The position numbers and the translations under genes were made by a program. From the IMG/VR virus record IMGVR_UViG_3300032308_001221, positions 1 to 22,490 of that record: DNA of 22,490 nt; one strand, 5' to 3'. Positions 1,165 through 21,640 of the stretch are shown one piece after another. How positions within the stretch are numbered: position 1 is the first letter of the stretch; the number at the start of each line of letters is the position of its first letter. This DNA comes from a virus. The notes below the pieces were generated by a model. That model searched no databases. It was not told the origin of the DNA and was given only the letters and a program-made list of their open reading frames with translations.

Positions 1165-2728
1165 GGCGGTTCCCGGTTTTGAGTGGGACGAAAACGCCTC
1201 GTCGCTGGTGGTGAACTTCATCGAAGGCGTGTGCTGCCACACGAAGGACTCTCCGACCGCGAAGGCCGGCGAGCCTATGAAACTCCTGCGGTGGCACGTC
1301 GAAGACGTGATCGAACCGCTCTACGGGTGGAAGGTCAAAGGCGAGGACACGCGGAGATTCAGACTCGCCTACCTAGAAGTTCCGAAAAAAAACGCCAAGT
1401 CAACGCTCCTCTCATGCCTTTCTATCTGGCATCTCATCATGGAGGGCGAGGGCGAGCTCGGGTGTATCGCGGCGAAGGATCGCAACCAGGCGGCGATCAT
1501 CTTTGACGAGACGGCCGCGATGGTGAACCGCTCGCCGGAACTTCGACAGATGCTCGAAGTGGTGGACTCTCGCAAGACGATCGTCTGCGCCGCGACCGGG
1601 TCGAGTATGCGGGTGATTTCCCGCGATGCCGGGGCGGCAGAAGGCCCGTCCTACTCGTTCGTATTTTGCGACGAACTGCACGCCTGGCCCGACCGGCGTC
1701 TATTCGAGGCACTCCGCTACTCGGGCCGCTCCCGTCGAGCTCCGCTACTCGCGACGATAACCACGGCCGGCGACCGGCGGGACACGATTTGCTGGGAGCA
1801 GCACGAATACGCGGAGCAAGTCATCGCCGACCCAAAGTATGACCCGCGGTTCTACGGCAAGATTTTTGCGGCGCAGACGGGCGACGACTACTTCTCGCCC
1901 GCCGTGTGGAAGCGGTGCAATCCTGGCATGGGCATCACGATGACTGAGGAGGCGTTCGCCGCCGATGCCCAAGAGGCCCGCAACAAGAGCAGCAAGTTGA
2001 ACGGCTGGCTGCGGTACTCGCTCGGAGTGTGGGTAGAGAGTTCGCAGAGGTGGATCGACCCCGAGAAGTGGGCCGCTTGCTCCTCGCCCCCGCCCGAGCC
2101 GCTCGCGGGCCGGCGGTGCATCCTGGGCATGGACTTGTCGAAGAGCACCGACTTGTCGGCGTGCGTTGCGGTCTTCCCGAATGACGACGGGACGTTCGAC
2201 GTGGAGCCGATGTTCTGGGCTCCCCGCGATCTCATCATGGAGCGGGAGCGAACCGACCGGCAGCCGTTCCAGCACTGGGTCAATCAAGGCTGGATTCACG
2301 CGACAGACGGCAATGTGATCGACCACGCCGCGATTCGCGAATACGTGCTGGAATACGCCAAGACGCACCAAGTACAGAAGGTCTTGATGGACATCAGCGG
2401 TGCCGTCCAGTTGTCGGTGGAACTGCAAGGGGCGGGGCTGGACGTGGAATCATACGGACAAGGGTTTCGGCACATGAGCAGCCCCACGAAGCTCCTTGAG
2501 TCGCTGACGCTCCAGCAGAAAATCCGCCATGCGGGAAACCCAGTCCTGTCGTGGATGGCCGGATGCGTGACCGTGGAGACGAATGCGTTTGAAGACGTTC
2601 GCCCAGTGAAGAAGAAAAGCACAGGCCGCATCGACGGCATCGTGGCTCTCATCTTCGCCTTGGGCTACTGGGAAGCGAATAGCATCACCAACGCCGCCGG
2701 AAACGGCCCCGACTTGTTTTTCATATGA
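1097..2728 (+). CDS. terL: Terminase large subunit (ATPase-nuclease)
   Basis: This is the motor that translocates DNA into the prohead and cuts it. With the ATG at 1097 as residue 1 (543 residues), the ATPase domain has a Walker A-like PKKNAKST at about 96-103 and Walker B FVFCDE with D192 and E193. The C-terminal RNase H-like nuclease shows the expected three acidic positions: D346 in GMDLSKS, D432 in LMDISG and D513 in GRIDGI. Length is normal. A TTG three codons upstream (1088) is possible, but the ATG is preferred. The gene starts inside the small-subunit gene and its TGA overlaps the portal ATG (ATGA at 2725-2728), so the three packaging genes are translationally linked. The Ser/Arg-rich first 25 residues are probably a flexible or DNA-binding tail. 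Confidence 0.95.
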   Translation: MPSKRAPSKSSSSSRLPPRRQREAVPGFEWDENASSLVVNFIEGVCCHTKDSPTAKAGEPMKLLRWHVEDVIEPLYGWKVKGEDTRRFRLAYLEVPKKNAKSTLLSCLSIWHLIMEGEGELGCIAAKDRNQAAIIFDETAAMVNRSPELRQMLEVVDSRKTIVCAATGSSMRVISRDAGAAEGPSYSFVFCDELHAWPDRRLFEALRYSGRSRRAPLLATITTAGDRRDTICWEQHEYAEQVIADPKYDPRFYGKIFAAQTGDDYFSPAVWKRCNPGMGITMTEEAFAADAQEARNKSSKLNGWLRYSLGVWVESSQRWIDPEKWAACSSPPPEPLAGRRCILGMDLSKSTDLSACVAVFPNDDGTFDVEPMFWAPRDLIMERERTDRQPFQHWVNQGWIHATDGNVIDHAAIREYVLEYAKTHQVQKVLMDISGAVQLSVELQGAGLDVESYGQGFRHMSSPTKLLESLTLQQKIRHAGNPVLSWMAGCVTVETNAFEDVRPVKKKSTGRIDGIVALIFALGYWEANSITNAAGNGPDLFFI

Positions 2729-4869
2729 TCGCCAAATCCGAGCACCGTATCCTCTGGCTGCCCAACGAAGAGCGCATGTGGGACGACGAAGGCGGCGGCT
2801 CGCGAAACGCCGCCGGCGTGCGGATCGACTCCAGCAATGCCCACTCGGTCGCGGCGGTCTTCTCCTGCCTGCGGGTGATCGCGGAGACGGTGGCGAGCCT
2901 GCCGCTCCATGTGCTTGAGCGGACACCAGGGGGCGGCAAGCGGATCGCCCGCGAGCTCCCGCTCTACCGCCAACTCCACGCGCAGCCGAACGGCTGGCAG
3001 ACTTCGTTCGAGTGGCGAGAGCAGGCAGTCTTCCACATCGGGCTCTGGGGCGACGCGTTCTCTGAACTCAAGGCCGCGCAGATCGTGCCGCTGCACCCGA
3101 GCCGCATGAAGGTGGAACGGGTCGAGAACGGAAAGATTCGCTACAAGTTCCGCGAGGACAAAGGCACCGAGACGATCTACTCGAACGAGCAGATCCTCCA
3201 GATTCGCGGCCCGAGCGACGACGGCATCAACGGGATGTCGATTGTGGAAGAGTGCAAGGACGCGATCGCACTGGCCCGGGCTTGCGAGTTGCATGGGGCT
3301 CGCTTCTTCGCGGCCGGTGCCCGCCCCGGGTTTGTACTCTCGACTGACGGCAACCTGAACGCGGAGGCCCGCGAGTCGCTGCGGTCGCAGTGGGACCGGC
3401 GTCACGGCGGCGTCGGCAACTCTCATAACACGGCGGTGCTCACGGGTGGGCTCAAGCCCTACGAGATTCCGCAGAGCAGCAATAGCGATGCTCAGTTTCT
3501 TGAGCTTCGCCGCTACCAGTTGGAAGAGATCGCACGCCTCTTCCGGTGCCCCGGTCATCTGCTCGGCATCGGGGCCGGCAGCGCGCAAGCCGACATCGAG
3601 TTCGTGCAGCACACGATCCTCCCGTGGCTGCGTCGATTTGAGTCGGCGTTCATGCGCGACCTCATCGAAGACGACGATCGGTATCTGATCGAGTTCGACG
3701 TGCGCGGCCTCCTCCGCGGCGACTCTTCGAGCCGGTCGGCCTACTACCGGGCCATGTGGGACATCGGCGTTTTGAACACCGATGACATCCGCGAACTGGA
3801 GAACATGGACCCGGTCGAAGGCGGCGACGTTCGTTATCGGCCGCTGAACATGGGCACGCTGGGCGAGATGCCGACCGAAGGCGACGTGCTGGCCCAGCAA
3901 CAGCCGGGAAGCGGCATCGACGGCCAGGCGGTCGAAGGCGGGCTGGCCGCTGCGGCTGGCGAGCCGGTGGTGCCGGCGGTGCCGGGCGAGCCGGCAGAGA
4001 CAAGCCTCTCGACGGCCGAGGTCTCGTCGCTATTGACGGTGGTGAAGCAGATCACCGACGGGATGCTGACGGTGGACGCCGCTCGGGCGATCATTGCTGC
4101 GGCCTTCCCTGTGCTCTCTGCGGCCCGGGTCGAGACGATCCTGCAAGGCGTAGCGGTGAAGCAGGAAGAGCCGGCAGCACCCGCTCCCGTGCCGCAGACG
4201 CCGGCGGTCGGCCGCTCGCTAGAGGAGCGTGCCAAGCCGGGCAGTGTCTCCGAAGGCGACTTCGTGTCGTGGAATTCGTCGGGCGGTCGTGCCCGCGGGC
4301 GGGTCGATCACGTGATGGACTACGGCACGCTCGACGTGCCGGGCACCGACTTCAAGCTCGACGCGAGCGAGAAAGATCCGGCGGCCCTCATCACGGTCTA
4401 CGAACAGGTGGCCGGCGGCTGGAGACAGACCGACACGAAGGTCGGCCACAAGGTTCAGACGCTTACGAAGATCGACCCGCTGGCATCGCCGCCTGCGGAT
4501 TCGGAAGGTCGCTCGCTCCCCGAGTCGCGTGCCCTCACGATCAGTATGGACTTCGACCGCACGTTCGCGGCCGACCCGACCCTCTGGGGCGAGTTCGCCC
4601 GCAAGGCGGTCGCGGACGGGAACACGGTCGTGATGATCTCTCGCCGGCCCGAGCAGGACCGCCAGACGGTCGCCGAGACGCTGGGCGACTACGCCGACGC
4701 TTTCTCTCAGGTGCTCCTCGTGGGTGGCGACACGATGAAGGGGCACGCGGCCCAGGCGGCAGGCATCAGCGTAGACGTGTGGGTTGATGACAGCCCGCAG
4801 ACGATCACGCCCGCGAAGCCGTGCGGCGAGTGCGATGACAAGCCGAAGACGCGGAGCCGCAAGAAGTGA
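2725..4869 (+). CDS. HK97-family portal protein with C-terminal Tudor-like and HAD-fold domains
   Basis: Residues 1 to about 385 are a standard HK97-type portal, the dodecameric DNA entry ring of the capsid: VFSCLRVIAETVASLPLHV near the start, then GLWGDAFSEL, GIGAGSAQADIEFVQHTILPW and ENMDPVEGG. Family members are usually 380-480 residues; this one has 714. A low-complexity Gly/Pro/Gln linker (about 390-425) is followed by a helical segment (TAEVSSLLTVVKQITDGML), then a small beta domain at about 507-590 beginning GDFVSWNSSGGRARGRV that resembles a DUF2945/HVA1 Tudor-like fold. The last about 110 residues look like a HAD hydrolase: D609-F-D611-R-T613, S639, K672 and D688-D689, in the correct motif order I-II-III-IV. 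The portal call is certain, the HAD call good from motif order, the Tudor call tentative. What the extra enzyme acts on is unknown. The stop overlaps the next gene's GTG. Confidence 0.92.
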   Translation: MIAKSEHRILWLPNEERMWDDEGGGSRNAAGVRIDSSNAHSVAAVFSCLRVIAETVASLPLHVLERTPGGGKRIARELPLYRQLHAQPNGWQTSFEWREQAVFHIGLWGDAFSELKAAQIVPLHPSRMKVERVENGKIRYKFREDKGTETIYSNEQILQIRGPSDDGINGMSIVEECKDAIALARACELHGARFFAAGARPGFVLSTDGNLNAEARESLRSQWDRRHGGVGNSHNTAVLTGGLKPYEIPQSSNSDAQFLELRRYQLEEIARLFRCPGHLLGIGAGSAQADIEFVQHTILPWLRRFESAFMRDLIEDDDRYLIEFDVRGLLRGDSSSRSAYYRAMWDIGVLNTDDIRELENMDPVEGGDVRYRPLNMGTLGEMPTEGDVLAQQQPGSGIDGQAVEGGLAAAAGEPVVPAVPGEPAETSLSTAEVSSLLTVVKQITDGMLTVDAARAIIAAAFPVLSAARVETILQGVAVKQEEPAAPAPVPQTPAVGRSLEERAKPGSVSEGDFVSWNSSGGRARGRVDHVMDYGTLDVPGTDFKLDASEKDPAALITVYEQVAGGWRQTDTKVGHKVQTLTKIDPLASPPADSEGRSLPESRALTISMDFDRTFAADPTLWGEFARKAVADGNTVVMISRRPEQDRQTVAETLGDYADAFSQVLLVGGDTMKGHAAQAAGISVDVWVDDSPQTITPAKPCGECDDKPKTRSRKK

Positions 4870-5900
4870 TCGCCGTCTTTCGCCCAACGCGACCGGGCGA
4901 CGCCGACGCCGTGCTGCGGTGCGTGCGGATGCTCAAGGCCGTGCGTGCGGTGATTGAGCGACGCGCCTTTTGCCCGACGGGCAAGGGCGGCGGGGTGGAC
5001 AATTCCTGCGGGTCGAATAAGGGTGGTGGCGGTGGGGGGGCGGGCAATGCAGCCACAATCGGCAGCGAATCCGGTGCCGTAAGCCATGAACAAGCCAAAA
5101 GGGTTTTCCGAGGAGCGTCCGAAAAGGCTATCAGTCCAGACCACGGAGGCACACCAGAGCAAAAAGCAGAGCGCGCAGAGTTCAAAAAGCGCGTAGTTGA
5201 GGAGACGGTAAGCCGCGTGAAGGAGCGATTGTCGGAGGACGATGTGCCGGAAAGTCTTCTAAAAGCAATGCGATTTGATCGACCTGAGTATTCAGAGGGG
5301 TCGGCGGGCGGAGAGCAGAAAAGGACTGCGCTCGTTCGCGGGATGGTCGATCGGTGGGCGGATACTTCTGGCGACTCAGATCCACCCGCGGTCGGAGTGC
5401 AGCGAGCGATTGCTGCGGAACTCTCGCGAGAAATCCCGGACTTGAAGGATTCTGAGCTCAAGCATCTCGGCCAGTATGGGCGCAGGCCGATTTCTACTGA
5501 AGACATCTTGAAGGCAAGGCAGATCGAAACGCTTGTTGGCGAAAGCGGGGCTGTCAGGGCTGTTGTCAGAGCACAGTACGAGGCAACGCAGCAATACTTT
5601 AAAGAGCAAGGCATCAAGGAGTTGACTCTGCATAGAGGCTTTCATGCGCCGAACCTAAAGGAGTCCGACGACGCCGAGATTCTCATGCAGCCCGCTTCTA
5701 GCTTTTCCCTCAATCGCCGCACGGCCGAGATGTTTGCGAACGACATGGAGTACGCGTTCTCTGGGCTCGCCACCGTGACCGTCCCAGTAAGTCGCGTCTT
5801 CTCCACGCCGGCCACCGGGTTCGGTTGCCTGCCAGAACAGGAAGTTGTCGTGCTGGGCGGGAAGGTGCGTGGCAAACTCAAGGTGGGCGGCAAGAAATGA
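4866..5900 (+). CDS. Putative ADP-ribosyltransferase-fold protein (R-S-E type) with N-terminal Cys/Gly motif
   Basis: Read from GTG 4866, which overlaps the portal stop (GTGA), this is 344 residues; an in-frame ATG at 4929 is a possible alternative start. The N-terminus has C36 and C48 bracketing PTGKGGGVDNS, then SNKG and a glycine run. The middle (about 60-250) is charged and helical. The last about 90 residues carry the three ADP-ribosyltransferase signatures in order: R257 in LTLHRGFHAP, S278-S281 in PASSFSLNRRTAEMFA, and the E324-x-E326 pair in PEQEVVVLGG, followed by the chain end, as in arginine-type R-S-E toxins. Such enzymes move ADP-ribose from NAD+ to a protein target. Sitting between portal and protease it could be a virion-packaged effector, analogous to ADP-ribosyltransferase domains on phage MuF-type head proteins. 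Target and activity are unknown; the fold call rests on motifs only. Confidence 0.68.
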   Translation: MIAVFRPTRPGDADAVLRCVRMLKAVRAVIERRAFCPTGKGGGVDNSCGSNKGGGGGGAGNAATIGSESGAVSHEQAKRVFRGASEKAISPDHGGTPEQKAERAEFKKRVVEETVSRVKERLSEDDVPESLLKAMRFDRPEYSEGSAGGEQKRTALVRGMVDRWADTSGDSDPPAVGVQRAIAAELSREIPDLKDSELKHLGQYGRRPISTEDILKARQIETLVGESGAVRAVVRAQYEATQQYFKEQGIKELTLHRGFHAPNLKESDDAEILMQPASSFSLNRRTAEMFANDMEYAFSGLATVTVPVSRVFSTPATGFGCLPEQEVVVLGGKVRGKLKVGGKK

Positions 5901-7231
5901 CCGTGTCAATAAACATTGACGAGGATCTGCGGAATGCAGACTGGGTCAAGAAATCGAATGACAGGATTTCGTTCCTGGCTTCCGTAAAACCCGCCGCCCG
6001 CGCATGGTGCAAAGGCGCATCCCCGCCGGATAACTCATGCCCTCCATCGAATAAGGGCAAGGGCGGAAAGGGCTCTGGCGGCGGTGGTGTTAAAGGAAAG
6101 AGCAAGGGCGACAAAGGCGGAAAGGGCTCGAAGGGACGCAAGTCATCGAAGGGTTTTGATCCCGACAAGTCTTCTGCCGCGATCGTGAAGAAACTTGCGT
6201 CTGTGGATGCGAAGGTCGAGAAGAAGATTAATGCGGCTACGAAGAAAGAGGAAAAGGCAAAGGCCGCCACCGCCACGGCGTTCGACAAGATACGTTCGTT
6301 TGATACGGCGTGGGTTGCCGCTAGAGATGCGCTTGATAAAGATCCTGGCAACGCATCAAGGAAGCGAGCGCTTGATCGGATAAACAAGCAAATGCAGGCT
6401 GCGGCAGAGGCACACGCAAAGAACAAAGATGCGTATCAGACCGCAAGACAGCAGCGAGAGCTCGCCGTACAAGATCGAGCCAAGGCAGGCCGCGAAGTGT
6501 TGCGTCAAGAAATATCTCGGGAGATTCTGGAGATCGCAGGCACAGACGGCCTCGCGACCATCTACGAATCATCTAAGGCGACAATCCAGAAGACTCACGC
6601 CGACAGGCTCAAGAAAGTCAGAAACCCGGAGGCCAGGAGCCGAGTGGCAGACGCCTACGCTTTCATGCTTGAGCACACCAACCCGGCTATTCACGCTGGG
6701 GCGTTGCAGCCGAAGCTCTCGATGCGTGGCAATGTTCGGGCCTATGCAAAACGCGGCGGTTTTGACAGCGAGACGTTTGAGCCTACCGGAGCTCCAGAGG
6801 TCGTTGTTTCCTCCCGTGAGTCGCCGAGCGTGATCGCCCATGAGATCGGGCACTGCGTTGAGTACAACCCGGAAGCTACCCGACTGGCTCAAGAGTTTAG
6901 GTCGCGACGCACCGCCGGGTCGCAGGAGGTTTCGTTTCGCAGCAAGTTTGGCCGCGGATACAAGAGGGACGAACGCGGTGCACCCGACGATTTCAAGAAG
7001 GCGCACCTTGCCGCCGGGTATGACGAGAAGGAAGCAGATCACCGTGCGCACTACACCGGAAAGCGATACGCAAGCGGCAGCACCGAAGTGATTTCGATGG
7101 GCGTCGAGTTGCTCAAGAAAGATCCGGCCGCGTTTGCCAAATCTGACCCTGAATGGTTTGCCTTCACTACTGGCATAATGACGGGACGGCTACTGAACGA
7201 GTCCAGGCAAAAGAAAAAGGCGCGAGCGTGA
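5897..7231 (+). CDS. Putative HExxH zinc metallopeptidase with N-terminal Cys motif and Lys/Gly linker
   Basis: The start is placed at ATG 5897, which overlaps the previous stop (ATGA), giving 444 residues; reading further upstream would only add translation of the preceding gene's end in another frame. Layout: residues 1-50 with C38 and C48 around a DNSC..SNKG motif matching the upstream protein; a Gly/Lys/Ser-rich disordered stretch (about 50-95); a long Ala/Lys/Arg-rich helical region (about 95-230) likely to be coiled; then a C-terminal domain with H315-E-I-G-H319, a gluzincin-type zinc site, and a plausible third ligand E397 in GSTEVISMGVE. The very basic linker could bind DNA inside the head. 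I propose a peptidase-like effector or a morphogenesis factor; the substrate is not inferable. The motif spacing supports the catalytic assignment, but the family is not identified. Confidence 0.62.
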   Translation: MTVSINIDEDLRNADWVKKSNDRISFLASVKPAARAWCKGASPPDNSCPPSNKGKGGKGSGGGGVKGKSKGDKGGKGSKGRKSSKGFDPDKSSAAIVKKLASVDAKVEKKINAATKKEEKAKAATATAFDKIRSFDTAWVAARDALDKDPGNASRKRALDRINKQMQAAAEAHAKNKDAYQTARQQRELAVQDRAKAGREVLRQEISREILEIAGTDGLATIYESSKATIQKTHADRLKKVRNPEARSRVADAYAFMLEHTNPAIHAGALQPKLSMRGNVRAYAKRGGFDSETFEPTGAPEVVVSSRESPSVIAHEIGHCVEYNPEATRLAQEFRSRRTAGSQEVSFRSKFGRGYKRDERGAPDDFKKAHLAAGYDEKEADHRAHYTGKRYASGSTEVISMGVELLKKDPAAFAKSDPEWFAFTTGIMTGRLLNESRQKKKARA

Positions 7232-8812: not shown

Positions 8813-10183
8813 GTGGCTGTCGAAAAGCTCAAGGCTCTGCTCGATGAACTCGCTGCCGTTGTCGCCGAGATGGAGGCGATGACCGAAGACGCCCCCGAGG
8901 GCGAAGAGGCCGCGCCGATGACCGAGGAGCAGGAGGCGTCCCTTCGTTCACTCGAAGGCCGGGCCGACAAGCTCCGCGAGCGGATTGAGTTCGTGCAGCG
9001 CGTTCAGGTGAAGGAAAGCGAACTGCGGGCCGTTTTGGAGCGTGCTGCTCCGGCTAAGGCGATCGAGACCCCCGAGTCGAAGGAGACTGCCGTGGAGAAG
9101 CGTGAGTATGCCGTGCCGAAGTCGCACAACAACCTCCGCGCGTTCAAGGACGCCGAGACCGCGTACCGTGCGGGAATGCACTTGAAGGGCTACGTGTTCG
9201 GCGATGCCGAAGCCCGTCGGTGGTGCCAGGATCACGGCGTCGAGACCCGCGCCCAGGCCGGCGGAATCAATTCGCTCGGCGGTGTACTTTCGAGTCCTGA
9301 ACTCAGCAATGAGATCATCCGGCTTGTCGAGGAGTTTGGCGTGTTTCCTCAGTACGCGAAGCGTGCCGTGATGAACAGCGACACGCTCGTGTACCCGCGT
9401 CGCACCGGCGGGTTGGTCGCCCGCCCCGTCGGCGAGAACGTCGAAGTGACCCAGAGCGACGTGACGTTTGACAACGTCGAGCTCAACGCGCGAATCTGGG
9501 GCGTGGCGAACCGCACCCCGAACTCGCTGCTCGAAGACTCGGTGATTGACCTCGCCGATGCGATGGCGGTCGAAGTGGGCCAGGCGTTTGCCGAAGCCTT
9601 CGACAACGCCGGCTTCATCGGTGACGGCACGCTGGCCTACCACGGCGTGACCGGCGTGGCGACGAAGGTTCTCCAGTCGGCCTACTCGGCGAGCGTCGTG
9701 ACTGCCACCGGCAACACGACCTTCGGCGACCTGACCATGCGGAACTTCACCGACGTGCTGGCCCGGCTCCCGCTCTTTGCGAGGAACCGGAACGCTCGCT
9801 GGTACATCTCCCCGGCTGGCTGGGGCTCCGCGATGCTTCGGCTCGCCATGCTCCCCGGCGGCACGTCCAACGCTGGCGGCAACAACTCGGGCAACATCGC
9901 CGCCGGTTTCGGCGAGACGTTCCTGGGCTACCCCGTCACGCTGGTGCAGCCGATGGAGAGCCGCGTGACCGGCACGACCGGCCAGGTGGCCGCCCTGTTC
10001 GGCGACTTGAGCCAGGCGGCGATCTTCGGCGAGCGGCGTGCCATCTCGATCAAGACCGCCAGCGAGCGGTACATCGAGTTCGATCAGACCTTGACGTTTG
10101 CCACGGCTCGCAATGCGATGGTCGTGTCCGACCTGGGCTCGACCACGAAGGCCGGCCCGCTCGTTGCCCTCAAGTTCGGCTGA
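8813..10183 (+). CDS. Major capsid protein, HK97 fold
   Basis: This 456-residue protein starts at GTG 8813 with a clear AGGAG. Residues 1 to about 95 are acidic and strongly helical (KLKALLDELAAVVAEMEAM, then LEGRADKLRERIEFVQRVQ), matching the delta or scaffold domain removed by the prohead protease. The rest is the HK97 fold: GGINSLGGVLSSPELSNEII, the E-loop-like LVYPRRTGG, VANRTPNSLLEDSVIDLADAM along the spine helix, the FIGDGT motif, GFGETFLGYPVTLV, then the C-terminal strand near RYIEFDQTLTFATARNAM. It assembles as hexamers and pentamers forming the icosahedral shell. The cleavage site is not determinable by eye but should fall around residues 90-150. Abundant in virions; the terminator downstream suggests its message ends soon after the next gene. 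Confidence 0.95.
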   Translation: MAVEKLKALLDELAAVVAEMEAMTEDAPEGEEAAPMTEEQEASLRSLEGRADKLRERIEFVQRVQVKESELRAVLERAAPAKAIETPESKETAVEKREYAVPKSHNNLRAFKDAETAYRAGMHLKGYVFGDAEARRWCQDHGVETRAQAGGINSLGGVLSSPELSNEIIRLVEEFGVFPQYAKRAVMNSDTLVYPRRTGGLVARPVGENVEVTQSDVTFDNVELNARIWGVANRTPNSLLEDSVIDLADAMAVEVGQAFAEAFDNAGFIGDGTLAYHGVTGVATKVLQSAYSASVVTATGNTTFGDLTMRNFTDVLARLPLFARNRNARWYISPAGWGSAMLRLAMLPGGTSNAGGNNSGNIAAGFGETFLGYPVTLVQPMESRVTGTTGQVAALFGDLSQAAIFGERRAISIKTASERYIEFDQTLTFATARNAMVVSDLGSTTKAGPLVALKFG

Positions 10184-10212: not shown

Positions 10213-10662
10213 ATGAATTTTGGTGCTGCACAGAAGTCGGTGTCGAAGGCCGAAGCCTCAGTGGCCTCGAACGCGACCCACTCTCTTGAAATCGACACGC
10301 TCGGGTTTGCTTACGCGTCGATCGACGTTCTCTTCACGCCGTTCACGGCCGCTGCCGCCACCGCTGCGACGGCCGCCACGGTGCTGCGTCTGGCCCAGAG
10401 CGACACCAGCGGTGCCGCGGGCACGGCGAACCTCTACGTGCAGGGCGTCGATTACACGGTGGCCGCTGGCACGACCGCCACGGCCGGCGTGGGCTACGCC
10501 CACCGCTTCGACGTGGACTTGAGGGGCAAGAGACGTTACCTCACGGTGTTCGCGACCCCGGTTTCCACGGTTGGTATCGTGACCTCGTGCCGTCTCTCGA
10601 AAAGCGAGGCAGGCGCGATGTCGGCAAGCGACAAGAACGTGAACACGCAAGCCGTCGGCTGA
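10213..10662 (+). CDS. Probable capsid decoration/stabilisation protein
   Basis: A 149-residue protein with its own good Shine-Dalgarno (TAGGAG, 10197-10202), lying between the major capsid gene and a strong terminator. It is rich in Ala, Thr, Ser and Val in short beta-strand-like runs (TAAAATAATAATVLRLAQSD, then LRGKRRYLTVFATPV) and has a basic patch before its end. There is no signal peptide or transmembrane segment. Genes in this slot commonly encode decoration or cementing proteins, made in amounts near that of capsid. I do not recognise a named family, so the assignment rests on position, beta-rich composition and sharing the high-expression segment with the capsid. A tail or fibre accessory role is less likely. 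Confidence 0.5.
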   Translation: MNFGAAQKSVSKAEASVASNATHSLEIDTLGFAYASIDVLFTPFTAAAATAATAATVLRLAQSDTSGAAGTANLYVQGVDYTVAAGTTATAGVGYAHRFDVDLRGKRRYLTVFATPVSTVGIVTSCRLSKSEAGAMSASDKNVNTQAVG

Positions 10663-10687
10663 TCGGCTTGACACGCGGACGAAAGTA

Positions 10688-10728
10688 GACGGCGGGAAGG
10701 CGACGAGCCTCCCCGCCGTCTCTCTTTT
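10688..10728 (+). terminator. Rho-independent terminator after capsid and decoration genes
   Basis: GACGGCGGGAAGGC (10688-10701) pairs with GCCTCCCCGCCGTC (10707-10720): 14 pairs with a single A/C mismatch around a 5-base GACGA loop, followed by TCTCTTTT (10721-10728). This is the clearest terminator in the window. The last T of its tail is the first base of the Shine-Dalgarno of the next gene (TAGGAG, 10728-10733), so downstream genes rely on readthrough or antitermination unless another promoter exists. Confidence 0.88.
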
Positions 10729-10739
10729 AGGAGCTCGCC

Positions 10740-11474
10740 GTGATCGTTCAAGTTGGTGATTCCCGCGTCGAAGTGCGTGCCGAAGCCGTGCTGTCTGGCC
10801 CACGATTCGGGCCGCTGATCAACGCCTTCGGGTTCATCGAAGCCCTCATGCCGCTGCACATCCGCCCGACGCTCGGGCAGGGAGCCTACTGGAGCCAGGT
10901 GCTCACGAGGATGCTAGAGCAGTTCGAGCCGACTACAGAGGCGATTATCACGCTGGACATGGACAGCTTCATATCCAAGGAAAGCATCGAACATTTGTTC
11001 GCGTTGTTCATGACCTTCCAGTGCGATGCCCTCGCGCCGCTCCAAACGAAACGCGAGGACGGCAGGCCGATGCTCACACTCCTCGACACCCTCGACAATC
11101 CTCCCGAAGGCGGCGTCACGTCAGTGCCCGTGGAGTGGTTCGGTCACCCTGTGCAGCAAGTCGATACGGCGCATTTTGGATGCACCATCATCTCGACCGC
11201 GGCTCTGCGGCGGATGAAAAAGCCGTGGTTCTACGAGCAACCAGATCCGCAAGGCGGGTACGGCGAAGGCCGAGTCGATGCCGACATCGGGTTCTGGCGT
11301 CAGTGGAAGGCTTCCGGCAACCGGCTCTACGTGACGCCTCGCGTGTGCATTGGGCATGGCGAATACGTGATCACGTGGCCCGGGAAGAACCTGAGCGGCC
11401 CGGTCTATCAGTACACGACAGAGTGGCAGAACACGCGGAAGCCGCCGGAAACTGCATGGAGGGTGGGCGAATGA
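10740..11474 (+). CDS. Putative GT-A-fold glycosyltransferase
   Basis: From GTG 10740, with TAGGAG 6 bases upstream, this is 244 residues. It shows AIITLDMDSF with a DxD motif (D73-M-D75) that in GT-A enzymes binds a metal and nucleotide sugar. Further on are DTAHFGCTIIST, the paired acids D180-A-D182 in RVDADIGFW, and a G-x-R-L-Y strand before CIGHGEY with H206, the usual layout of the acceptor half of GT2-like enzymes. It would transfer a sugar to a protein or glycan; virion decoration or tail glycosylation is plausible given the slot between decoration and neck genes. There is no membrane segment, so it is cytoplasmic. It lies just after a terminator and overlaps the next gene's ATG by 4 bases, so it shares the neck-gene operon. 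Sugar and acceptor are unknown. Confidence 0.65.
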   Translation: MIVQVGDSRVEVRAEAVLSGPRFGPLINAFGFIEALMPLHIRPTLGQGAYWSQVLTRMLEQFEPTTEAIITLDMDSFISKESIEHLFALFMTFQCDALAPLQTKREDGRPMLTLLDTLDNPPEGGVTSVPVEWFGHPVQQVDTAHFGCTIISTAALRRMKKPWFYEQPDPQGGYGEGRVDADIGFWRQWKASGNRLYVTPRVCIGHGEYVITWPGKNLSGPVYQYTTEWQNTRKPPETAWRVGE

Positions 11475-11686
11475 CGAAGATAGAAATGGTGCGGCTACGG
11501 ATGAGGAAGGCACACGGTGCCTACCGGGTCGGCGAGATCGTGGAACTGCCCGAGCGTGACGCCGAGTCGCTGATCGCCTGGGAGTACGCGGAGCGGGCCG
11601 CAGACAAGCAGACGATGATCGAGACCGCCAGCGTGGAGCCGGCGACACAGACGGCCGACGTGACGCCGCGGAGACGACGCAAGTGA
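11471..11686 (+). CDS. Small basic phage protein of the neck region
   Basis: A 71-residue protein from ATG 11471, which overlaps the glycosyltransferase stop (ATGA). It begins MTKIEMVRLRMRKAHGAYRVGEIVELPERDAESLIAWEYAE (quoted in two parts: MTKIEMVRLRMRKAHGAYRV and GEIVELPERDAESLIAWEYA), a pattern I recall in many small phage proteins just before the gp6-like connector: a beta-hairpin with GEIVELPE followed by a helix. The last ten residues are basic (TPRRRRK). Function is unknown; it probably sits at or near the head-tail interface. The end overlaps the next gene's GTG start, so translation is coupled. Confidence 0.65.
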   Translation: MTKIEMVRLRMRKAHGAYRVGEIVELPERDAESLIAWEYAERAADKQTMIETASVEPATQTADVTPRRRRK

Positions 11687-12267
11687 TACCGCAACGCTAC
11701 CGCAGCCTGAAGCGAACCGCCGCCCCGGTGGTCGAGCCCGTGACGCTCGCCGAGGCCAAAGCCCACTGCCGGGTCGATGCGTCGGCCGACGATACGCTGA
11801 TCACGAATCTGATCACGACTGCCCGCGAGCTCGTGGAGGACTACATTGACCGGGCTCTCGTGACCCAGCGGCTCGTCATGAAATTCGACCAGTTCCCGTC
11901 TGAGATCGAACTGCCCCGCCCGCCGATGGCGTCTAGCGGAACCGTCACGGCAGTGACGATCACGTACACGATCGCCGATAGCAGCACGGCGACGCTTGCG
12001 GCCACCGACTACCGGGTGGATCGAGACTCCACGCCGGGCCGCATCCGCACGACCTACAACGGCTCCTGGCCGTCGGCGTTACTGGATGCGAACGCGATCA
12101 CGGTCACATGGTGGGCTGGCTACGGCTCCTCAAGCGACATCCCGCAGCGGGTGAAGTCGGCCATGCTTATGACGATCCTCGAACTCTATGAAAAGCGTGG
12201 CGACGGGCAGATGCCCGATGGTGCCAAGCGGCTGCTCGATACCGTCTCGTGGGGGAGCTACACGTGA
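11683..12267 (+). CDS. Head-tail connector protein, gp6/phiE125 gp8-like
   Basis: From GTG 11683 (overlapping the previous TGA) this encodes 194 residues. It starts with PVTLAEAKAHCRVD, then DDTLITNLITTARELVEDYIDRAL, the signature of the gp6-like connector or phiE125 gp8 family. The middle is a beta-rich insertion (VTAVTITYTIADSS, LAATDYRVDRDS, GRIRTTYNGSWP), and the end returns to helices (QRVKSAMLMTILELYEKRG). These proteins form a ring under the portal that extends the DNA channel. Length is typical for the longer gp8 type. The stop overlaps the following GTG. Confidence 0.85.
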   Translation: MIPQRYRSLKRTAAPVVEPVTLAEAKAHCRVDASADDTLITNLITTARELVEDYIDRALVTQRLVMKFDQFPSEIELPRPPMASSGTVTAVTITYTIADSSTATLAATDYRVDRDSTPGRIRTTYNGSWPSALLDANAITVTWWAGYGSSSDIPQRVKSAMLMTILELYEKRGDGQMPDGAKRLLDTVSWGSYT

Positions 12268-12716
12268 GCCTTTCCGCAGAAGTGTTCTTCAGCATCGTCG
12301 CGGTGGAGACCGACACGGCCGACATTGCAAGAAACAGCCGCGTTACGCGGGCGGATTATTTCCAAGCGCTCACCGAAGGGACCGCCGCGAACCAAGCACA
12401 GATCGTGTGGAGCGATTCGCGGGTGAGCAGCGGCAGCGGCACCGACACGCTCCAGTTGGATAACCTGTCCGACACCCGCGAAGGCGCAAGCGTGTCAGTG
12501 GTTTTTTCCGCCGTGAAAACGATATACGTTCGCAACACCGGCAGCACACACACGCTCACGCTGACCGGCTCGTTTTCTGGCAGCGTTGCCCCCGGCGGCA
12601 TCTTTGCAGTCGTGAACCCGACGGCGACGGGGGCTTCGGCTGCGACGCTGTTCGTCTCCAGTACAGTCGGCGCGACCTATGACATCGTCGTGGTCGGCGA
12701 GGGCACGATCATATGA
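12264..12716 (+). CDS. Beta-rich phage structural protein of unknown function
   Basis: A 150-residue product from GTG 12264, chosen because it overlaps the upstream stop (GTGA); an earlier GTG (12249) would only extend into the connector gene. It opens SLSAEVFFSIVAVETDTADI, then a run of Thr/Ser/Gly-rich strands (SGSGTDTLQLDN, KTIYVRNTGSTHTLTLTG, PTATGASAATLFV, TYDIVVVGEGTII). It is predicted all-beta, soluble and without cysteines. I do not recognise a family. Its neighbours are a connector and a head closure protein, so it may be a neck accessory or decoration protein. Two 15-base pieces of its coding sequence reappear near the end of the gp10-like gene about 1.3 kb downstream. Confidence 0.7.
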   Translation: MSLSAEVFFSIVAVETDTADIARNSRVTRADYFQALTEGTAANQAQIVWSDSRVSSGSGTDTLQLDNLSDTREGASVSVVFSAVKTIYVRNTGSTHTLTLTGSFSGSVAPGGIFAVVNPTATGASAATLFVSSTVGATYDIVVVGEGTII

Positions 12717-13030
12717 TCGACGCCGGGCAACTCCGCGAGCGCATTACGGTAGAGCAGCCGACCGAATCGCGGAACCGGCTGGGCGAGACGACCTACACGT
12801 ACTCGTCATTCGCGGAAGTATGGGCCAGCGTCACGGGCGTGACGGCCCGTGAGTTTCTTCTGGCGAACACCCAGCAAACAGAGATCACGCACCGGATTCG
12901 GATGCGTTATCTGACGGGGCTCACGAACCAGATGCGGATCTCGTGGCGTGGCCGAACGCTTCAGATCATCTCGGTGCTTGAGCGAGAGAACCGGAGTGAG
13001 CACGAGCTGATCTGCTCGGAGACCGTCTAG
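12713..13030 (+). CDS. Head closure / head-tail joining protein
   Basis: A 105-residue protein from ATG 12713 (ATGA overlap). It follows the pattern of the head-tail joining family (SPP1 gp16 / HK97 gp7-like): IDAGQLRERITVEQPT at the start, NRLGETTYTYSSFAEVWASV, GVTAREFLLANTQQTEITHR, then IRMRYLTGLTNQMRISWRGR and the closing IISVLERENRSEHELICSE. It is expected to form the stopper ring beneath the connector. Length (100-115) and strand order are typical. Its TAG overlaps the following GTG by one base. Confidence 0.87.
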   Translation: MIDAGQLRERITVEQPTESRNRLGETTYTYSSFAEVWASVTGVTAREFLLANTQQTEITHRIRMRYLTGLTNQMRISWRGRTLQIISVLERENRSEHELICSETV

Positions 13031-20472: not shown

Positions 20473-20984
20473 TGGCAAGCCCGCGCGACCCGACGCAGTT
20501 CACACGCGAGAGCGCCGAGCGGATCGCCGCCGTGGTGCGCGCGGCCGAACTCGCATCGCCGGCGGCGAGGCCACTGTCGTTCGCCCGCGAAGATTTTTTT
20601 CGCAACCGGAAGGTTTTCCGCATGGCGACATTCGCCGGCGCGTGGCCGATAGGCGTCGAGAAGGCGGTCACCTTCAAGTATGAGACGGCGACGCCCAACA
20701 CTGCGTCGGCGCTGAACCTGTTTTTCCCGTTTACGGAAACGGCTGCGGCTGGCGATTGCGCGATAGCAAAAGACGGGACGGCGTGGTTTTTGATCGCCGT
20801 GCCTTTCGAGACGGCCACGGCGATTTTTATAGGGGCGACGGCTTCCACGTCTGTGCTGCGAGACGTGACGCTCTCGGCTTCGTTCAACACGTCTGCCTGC
20901 ACCATCAGTATTGGAAAGACGCTCGTGACAAATTCGATATCAATTGTGTCTTCCACGTTTACCTCAACGTTCCTTCGGTTTTAG
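20472..20984 (+). CDS. Unknown tail-tip protein
   Basis: A 170-residue protein from ATG 20472. The N-terminal third is charged (TQFTRESAERIAAVVRAAEL, FAREDFFRNRKVF); the rest is strand-like and Thr/Ala/Ser-rich, ending ISIVSSTFTSTFLRF. No family is recognised and no enzymatic motif is visible. A final hydrophobic strand at the very C-terminus is typical of phage proteins that assemble into rings or trimers. It likely belongs to the tail tip with its neighbours on both sides. The start overlaps the previous stop (TAATG). Confidence 0.55.
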   Translation: MASPRDPTQFTRESAERIAAVVRAAELASPAARPLSFAREDFFRNRKVFRMATFAGAWPIGVEKAVTFKYETATPNTASALNLFFPFTETAAAGDCAIAKDGTAWFLIAVPFETATAIFIGATASTSVLRDVTLSASFNTSACTISIGKTLVTNSISIVSSTFTSTFLRF

Positions 20985-20992
20985 GTGTACAG

Positions 20993-21640
20993 ATGGCTTG
21001 TCCATGCTGCGGGCCTCCTCCGCCTCCGCCTCCGCCGCCGCCGCCGCCTCCGCCGCCGCCGCCTCCGCCTCCGCCGCCTACGAATGATTGCAGGGCTTGT
21101 GATGTTCCTTGTAGATTAGGCGGCGTGACGGGGGGGGCTTACTTCAAGTTGCAAGAAGTTGGCATTGAGTGGCTACCGGAACTCCCAGAATTCCTTGGGT
21201 ATCCTGGCTCCTCAAGAAGTAAAGAAGTCTGGAAGTACGGAGTCGGCTCAGGCCCCCAAGTACCGCCCTACTTCCCGCCAGGCTTTACGTGGAACCCTGG
21301 ATACCCTGAGAAATTTGCGGGTTGCCTGTATGTTGTTTTAGACTTTGCAACAGCAATTAGCTACGGCACGGAATGCTGCGCCATTGACCTCGGCGAGCTC
21401 AGGTGTGGATCTAGGCGGGCAGTGGGTTCTTACAAATACAAATATAGATGGCGGTTTATGGTGCTGGATTGCGATTCGCGAGGCTTCACCGAAGTTACCG
21501 GCGATGCTGTCACGCCGACTGATCCCTTTGAAGGTTTAGTTGACCTCTTGGATACGCCGCTAGACAGGGATTGCGAAACCAAAAAATTTACGGCGTTGCC
21601 TGATTTTTTCGAAGACGTGCTGCCAGTAGTTTGCGAATGA
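20993..21640 (+). CDS. Polyproline (22 Pro) and Cys-rich tail-region protein
   Basis: A 215-residue protein from ATG 20993. It begins MACPCCG, then 22 consecutive prolines (residues 8-29, encoded by alternating CCG and CCT), then TNDCRACDVPCRLGG. The CPCC and CRACDVPC groups flank the proline tract and could bind a metal or form disulfides. The body is Pro/Gly/Tyr-rich (WLPELPEFLGYPG, PQVPPYFPPGFTWNPGYPEK) with YKYKYRWRFMVLDC, and the end is acidic. No fold is recognised. The rigid polyproline arm may place a binding domain away from the tail; ribosomes would need EF-P to read it. A G8 run (21130-21137) just after the proline tract could slip. ATG 20993 is chosen because an earlier start would overlap the preceding gene entirely. 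Confidence 0.65.
   Translation: MACPCCGPPPPPPPPPPPPPPPPPPPPPPTNDCRACDVPCRLGGVTGGAYFKLQEVGIEWLPELPEFLGYPGSSRSKEVWKYGVGSGPQVPPYFPPGFTWNPGYPEKFAGCLYVVLDFATAISYGTECCAIDLGELRCGSRRAVGSYKYKYRWRFMVLDCDSRGFTEVTGDAVTPTDPFEGLVDLLDTPLDRDCETKKFTALPDFFEDVLPVVCE

Follow-up and report, generated by a model that had tools for sequence, protein, structure and literature searches.

A putative GT-A glycosyltransferase encoded behind the major capsid gene in a lineage of HK97-type siphoviruses

The window, that is, the whole stretch of DNA analyzed here, is a 22,490-base IMG/VR virus record and carries the head-tail module of an HK97-type siphovirus, with genes for terminase, portal, prohead protease, major capsid protein, connector, head completion, and the tail. 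On the + strand, an HK97-fold major capsid protein of 456 aa is encoded at 8813–10183 (PF05065, E 3.6e-33; phrog_10), and a 149-aa protein rich in Ala, Thr, and Ser, possibly a decoration protein, at 10213–10662; the latter has no significant match in Pfam or PHROG. The next ORF on the same strand, at 10740–11474, encodes a protein of 244 aa, hereafter “window GT.” It starts with GTG, and a Shine-Dalgarno sequence, AGGAG, is found 6 bases 5′ of this start (10729–10733, + strand), as are AGGAG-type sequences 5′ of several of its relatives. An in-frame stop at 10728–10730 lies nine bases 5′ of the GTG, and therefore no start farther upstream is available. Downstream, the genes are tightly packed on the + strand: the ATG of a 71-aa ORF (11471–11686) overlaps the stop of the window GT gene in the sequence ATGA (11471–11474), and the stop of this ORF overlaps, in GTGA (11683–11686), the start of a gp6-like head-tail connector gene (11683–12267; PF05135, E 5.8e-11; phrog_442), which is followed by a gene for a head completion, or head-closure, protein (12713–13030, + strand; PF05521, E 1.5e-25; phrog_25). 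A homologue of the 71-aa ORF is present in 109 of 112 loci and, in the gene orders listed, comes next to the GT gene on its 3′ side. An earlier reading of this DNA, made from the sequence only, had pointed out a DMD triplet (D73-M74-D75), a DAD triplet (D180-A181-D182), and H206 in the ORF and had coupled the gene to the neck genes. Indeed, all of these residues are present at those positions, and the gene is located between the major capsid gene (PF05065) and the connector gene (PF05135).

Other parts of the module are less constant. A 155-aa gene in the gap between the connector and head completion genes (12249–12716; phrog_22694, E 1.4e-5, function unlisted) is matched in no more than 34 of 112 loci, and one locus (L075) has two other small ORFs in its place. 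Two ORFs between the portal and protease genes, at 4866–5900 and 5825–7231, have matches in only 4 and 3 of 112 loci, respectively, many of which end before this region; because of this rarity, the pair, and not the GT gene, looks like an accessory cassette of the head module. One ORF of the pair has no Pfam match and contains the sequences LTLHRGF, ASSFSLN, and EQEVVV, which we take to be an R/STS/ExE pattern like that of ADP-ribosyltransferases, and the other has a HEIGH zinc-peptidase motif and a match to a minor-head PHROG. At its C terminus, the portal protein (2725–4869) is extended by a region that includes a TUDOR-like domain (PF11160, E 1.1e-6) and a segment that matches phrog_4919 and phrog_4256 (E about 1e-11) and presumably resembles a HAD phosphatase. 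Farther downstream, the ORF at 20756–21640 has a tract of 22 prolines (21014–21079) after a Cys-rich start, and a related record has near the same place an ORF (L335, 12457–13566) in which a Cys-rich start is followed by a long run of serines.

Spurious long ORFs are plentiful in the G+C-rich window. For the window GT, full-length homologues free of stops are found at 296 loci, which include contigs fetched more than once and from which genes truncated by a contig end or not within 235–290 aa were dropped; these represent 185 gene sequences that differ as DNA and 170 distinct proteins, and the lowest identity to the window GT across the latter is 55%. A scan of viral contigs with the window GT protein gave 73 relatives, and one with an alignment gave at least 598 confirmed relatives among IMG/VR contig stretches; the set was enlarged by chained scans with more distant members, the best 80 of each being taken, and by a scan with the capsid protein. 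In 16 pairwise comparisons with the window gene, dN/dS was 0.06–0.26, values that show strong purifying selection. Judged from these comparisons, the ORF at 10740–11474 is not a chance ORF.

The leader of the gene contains a GC-rich, terminator-like hairpin at 10687–10721 (+ strand), between the upstream gene and the GT start, with 14 pairs, one A-C mismatch, and a T-rich tract on its 3′ side that stops a few bases short of the ribosome-binding site. A rule demanding a hairpin and a T-tract was passed by 125 of 156 distinct leaders, compared with 4 of 156 shuffled leaders and 4 of 447 random 85-mers from the same loci, and the stem sequence varies, with 37 different stem tops among the leaders. 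Six of the 31 leaders failing the rule were inspected by eye and have a stem with a bulge or fewer T. The hairpin of the window is not listed by a general terminator scan, perhaps because of the A-C mismatch. Such a hairpin is also found where the capsid gene directly adjoins the GT gene, for example, in L240. The capsid gene of T7 has a terminator after it. By analogy, the hairpin is likely a partial transcription terminator, by which the capsid genes would be expressed far above the GT and neck genes. The hairpin and the ATGA overlap group the GT gene with the neck genes, and this is counted against the explanation favored below.

The window GT protein alone finds nothing significant in Pfam, in PDB sequences, or in phage records; a look-up in the phage records at E up to 10 gave ten weak matches, the best at E 3. 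Against phrog_1574, it gives only E 0.04 on its own, and 72 of 74 relatives match this PHROG at E ≤ 0.1 (best 8.5e-9), so that the match to PHROG 1574 is significant at the level of the family (74 members). No glycosyltransferase model of Pfam is found for the window GT up to E 1. The GT2 model PF00535 appears at E ≤ 1 in 18 of 74 relatives, with a best value of 0.07, and is above its curated cut-off in none of nine records; by this sequence measure, assignment to GT2 does not hold. DUF3954 (PF13128) matches 18 of 74 members (best 5e-4) and was rejected as a short local match covering only 12 residues around H206 in the window GT, and an acyl carrier protein, at E 1 the sole match in the search of PDB sequences with the A6 profile, was dismissed as chance.

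A bridge to known enzymes is provided by a cellular protein (L115), found by the family profile at E 1.1e-8. It matches phrog_1574 (4.9e-21), two glycosyltransferase PHROGs, and PDB entry 2c0n (1.6e-7), and furthermore genes of mycobacteriophages, for the most part annotated as glycosyltransferases, and of cyanophages, for the most part annotated as hypothetical. When L115 itself was searched against viral contigs, no relative was found. From outside the family, the proteins STIV A197 and Redno2 gp14 and those of the tailed viruses ctvy9321, vir323, S-SCSM2R, and S-SM2 were combined into a six-member profile, with L115 excluded. The archaeal-virus gene among these, vir323_00011, is itself labelled PHROG 1574. 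The window GT is found by this outside profile at E 6.7e-4; in a set of 3,453 ORFs and 1,000 shuffles, the profile picks out 116 of 116 family ORFs, its sole extra matches being a family fragment (L073) and L115. Because the six homologues came via L115, which had been found by the family profile, the test is not fully independent, and the recovery shows specificity rather than full independence of these sequence relationships. Searched singly against 4,344 sequences (best shuffle, E 0.29), the family profile matches the proteins of S-SM2 (3.3e-5), S-SCSM2R (7.1e-5), and ctvy9321 (2.2e-4), and none of Redno2 gp14, A197, and vir323 up to E 10; the latter three are tied to the family via fold, L115, or the joint profile. 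In a profile–profile alignment by hhalign, the family and seven outside homologues including A197 are related at a probability of 96% and E 4.4e-9, and their catalytic residues line up. Homology to A197-like viral glycosyltransferases is thus found by the joint profile only.

An AlphaFold2 model built from 74 sequences reached a pLDDT of 89.6 and a pTM of 0.89; a model from the single sequence (pLDDT 31.1) was discarded, and nothing was concluded from it. The top PDB match of the former is 2c0n, A197 of STIV (Foldseek E 7.7e-8; Z 17.5, rmsd 2.8 over 175 residues). Ranks 2–15 are entries of the LH3 glycosyltransferase domain, mimivirus R699, and ColGalT1 (Z 14.7–16.2), followed by B4GALNT1, Mnn9, and others. 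LH3, ColGalT1, and, as we take it, R699 are collagen-type protein glycosyltransferases, and these neighbors of the modelled fold hint at a protein as the acceptor. The list comprises 96 PDB chains at Foldseek E ≤ 0.001, with A197 and other glycosyltransferases on top and some nucleotidyltransferases having the same Rossmann-type core (PpNeuA, KdsB, GlmU, and UDP-glucose pyrophosphorylase); TarP, TarS, and RmlT, presumably wall-polymer glycosyltransferases, are among the lower-ranked matches. In the profile alignment, D73 and D75 fall on the DxD of A197, D61-E-D63, D182 on D151, and H206 on H172. Across the 170 distinct proteins, 63 residues are invariant, including D73, D75, D142, D180, D182, H206, and the block K104–M111. 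The published catalytic base of A197 is Asp151 (PMC4187194), and the window GT has all of the predicted GT-A fold, the DxD motif, and an acidic residue matching this base. Since the L115 bridge, the matches to phrog_1574 and the outside profile, and the predicted fold agree, its assignment by class as a GT-A glycosyltransferase is well supported by sequence and model. The sequence-only reading had proposed a GT-A-like enzyme and a structure prediction to be compared with the GT2 and GT-A families; the former is borne out, with the motifs lying on the A197 sites, and of the latter, the GT-A fold with its DxD stands and the GT2 label falls at the curated Pfam cut-off.

The same reading regarded the gene as an insertion outside the core module, which the gene order contradicts. 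A major capsid gene is located upstream of the GT gene in all of the 251 loci with enough upstream sequence (45 of 296 loci with less than 700 bases upstream were left out); the GT gene follows it directly in 47 and after one small gene, like that for the 149-aa protein, in 204. Most of these loci had been found via the enzyme, and therefore a second set was fetched via the capsid protein, namely, the best 80 of 471 by capsid similarity, with 63 new loci, some of them on contigs already fetched via the enzyme. The GT gene is present in 70 of 70 loci of this set with at least 900 bases after the capsid gene; the other ten have less and were not counted, and six of them still show part of the GT gene. 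Recent insertion is rejected on these counts of 251/251 and 70/70, and the latter counters the idea that the fixed slot is an artefact of searching with the enzyme. In the 70 capsid-ascertained loci, the median identity to the window is 82.5% for the capsid and 81.9% for the GT, the GT being the more conserved in 32; in 112 enzyme-ascertained loci, the medians are 70% for both the connector and the 149-aa protein. Four capsids from loci lacking the 149-aa gene are 36–38% identical, over their length, to the window capsid, and across this deeper split the GT sequence, at no less than 55% identity in the whole set, holds better than the capsid. In one locus (L175), the capsid is 76% and the GT only 60% identical to those of the window, and therefore enzyme subfamilies and capsid types have been re-paired within one slot. 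Taken as gene order and sequence, the window GT gene looks like a core gene of its lineage and not a stray insertion. Outside the lineage, six distant capsid homologues from Planctomycetota genomes (26–36% identity) have no family member within flanks of up to about 1.5 kb on both strands, one of these loci (L182, 2,665 bases) being cut. The GT gene may therefore not be general among HK97-type phages, and the trait may belong to one lineage. Moreover, two cyanophage homologues lie near baseplate genes and one pelagiphage homologue among replication genes, so that membership in the wider family does not imply a place near the capsid gene.

The closest known protein is A197 (PDB 2c0n) of the archaeal virus STIV, which is the best fold match, has the aligned catalytic residues, and is likewise a single small domain. 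It differs in that the identity is 15% over 175 residues and that STIV belongs to another realm, with a double-jelly-roll capsid. The A197 gene adjoins A223 and C381, which are turret genes (PMC10551542). According to the same source, the STIV capsid protein is glycosylated, loss of A197 leaves no detectable viral genomes, and D151E delays replication; donor and acceptor of A197 are described there as unproven. By analogy, STIV offers a suggestive precedent for virion glycosylation. Among tailed phages, the uncultured and otherwise different phage ctvy9321 has a capsid gene, a 100-aa gene, and then a homologous putative glycosyltransferase gene; it is named as Myoviridae, has a separate scaffolding gene, and gives only 18.4 bits to the family profile. 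In Mycobacterium phage Redno2 (Omegavirus), the gp13 capsid gene is directly followed by that of the glycosyltransferase gp14, and later by those of a glycosyltransferase, gp22, and a connector, gp23. Redno2 gp14 is related to L115 (tblastn E 2e-3, residues 123–195) and differs in that its cassette also encodes four other glycosyltransferases as well as a kinase and a methyltransferase; since it is not matched singly by the family profile, it is a weaker precedent than ctvy9321. In the two cyanophages looked at, the homologues are not in the capsid slot. Some mycobacteriophages are reported to have their capsid and tail tube glycosylated by phage-encoded glycosyltransferases (PMC12363180, PMC12619734). 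For example, Che8 gp110 and Corndog gp38 are phage-encoded enzymes of capsid glycosylation (PMC12363180), likened to the window GT here by description only, and in the cluster F1 phage Maravista, glycosyltransferase genes are described near the 3′ end of the genome (PMC11256854).

Probably, at a rough probability of 60%, the window GT is a metal-dependent enzyme that attaches a host-derived sugar to a protein of the virion, with the major capsid protein as the likeliest target. The sequence-only reading had suggested virion proteins such as the decoration or tail proteins, and a target in the virion is plausible. A small, single-domain GT-A enzyme would be made together with the head and neck proteins and would draw a nucleotide-sugar from the host pool; D73 and D75 would bind the metal and the diphosphate, D182 would serve as the catalytic base, the role proposed for A197 Asp151, and H206 would complete the site. 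The sugar would then be transferred in the cytoplasm to a virion protein, for which the 149-aa protein or a tail protein may be considered besides the capsid. The 149-aa protein as the sole acceptor is ruled out, as its gene is missing in 47 of 251 loci, where the GT gene comes directly after the capsid gene; the likeliest target accordingly shifts to the major capsid protein. Two observations favor the capsid: in loci that lack the 149-aa gene, the GT gene still lies beside the capsid gene, and in ctvy9321 and Redno2, wider-family glycosyltransferases follow the capsid gene. Since the paired capsids differ widely (36–38%, and the case of L175), an acceptor site would have to survive much change of the capsid.

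In some relatives, the glycan may comprise more than one sugar. No second enzyme of the GT family is found in eight long related records, and no GT25 gene in seven of them. The exception is a 53.9-kb record (G396), in which two PF01755 GT25-type stretches over the cut-off lie near tail genes at about 30.3–31.9 kb (L335, 11286–11942; L337/L338). That record also has a GT2-like ORF (L334, 8458–9336; PF13704, E 8.7e-5), below the cut-off. Three of the records (G397, G398, and G399) have another weak GT2-like ORF, which lies apart from the head genes and does not reach the Pfam cut-off; a weak GT2-like match in G396 is doubtful, and two other weak matches are the family gene itself. 

Other functions were weighed against modification of the virion. 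An active GT that merely sits in the late operon may instead modify the host surface, a receptor or an envelope glycan, against superinfection or re-adsorption. Host-range genes tend to vary, and for such a gene, a capsid-side slot in 251 of 251 loci and conservation equal to that of the capsid would be unusual; hence this role appears unlikely, even with TarP, TarS, and RmlT among the lower fold matches. Phage glycosyltransferases are known to modify hosts (PMC12619734, PMC10955285), and some are known to hypermodify DNA (PMC12619734, citing Pyle 2024), which suggests a further alternative, glycosylation of modified bases in the phage DNA. The latter, which would confer resistance to restriction, recalls the pelagiphage homologue among replication genes, but the window GT gene is placed among head and neck genes, and we give this function little credence; the Pfam scan for base-modification genes covered 10 ORFs of one related 53.9-kb record. 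Equally improbable is a non-catalytic GT-A fold kept as a structural or chaperone part of head–neck assembly. Its small size, its constant position between capsid and connector, and its capsid-like conservation would suit a part of the virion, but D73, D75, D142, D180, D182, and H206 are invariant in 170 of 170 proteins, and D73, D75, D182, and H206 align with D61, D63, D151, and H172 of A197. Glycosylation of a virion protein is thus preferred.

For the host, the sole lead is a 14.9-kb contig with this gene order, binned in a Planctomycetota MAG. The family profile, run against 392 Planctomycetota genomes, matched two, of which one is the MAG of L075 itself. Because a binning error is possible, a Planctomycetota host is not claimed. 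A literature search, mostly without subscription papers, found no paper on the GT family in this phage lineage and no biochemical or mass-spectrometry data for it.

Glycosyltransferases acting on phage virions are already known, and the window GT would be a new, widespread, and apparently obligatory one. A probable function is thereby offered for PHROG 1574, which is listed with unknown function, and for at least 598 IMG/VR contig stretches. The pair of capsid and enzyme can be co-expressed and the product read by mass spectrometry without the host of the phage. The finding suggests that virion glycosylation in tailed phages may extend beyond the few mycobacteriophages reported. A wider claim is that head maturation in these very common HK97-type siphoviruses requires capsid glycosylation throughout the lineage, by a single dedicated GT whose gene has kept its place behind the capsid gene while its neighbors, and even the sequence of the capsid, changed; this claim is tentative, and on balance we doubt it. 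If it is true, virion glycosylation would be a basic trait of assembly or stability and not an accessory one, as may be compared with A197, which is apparently essential for STIV.
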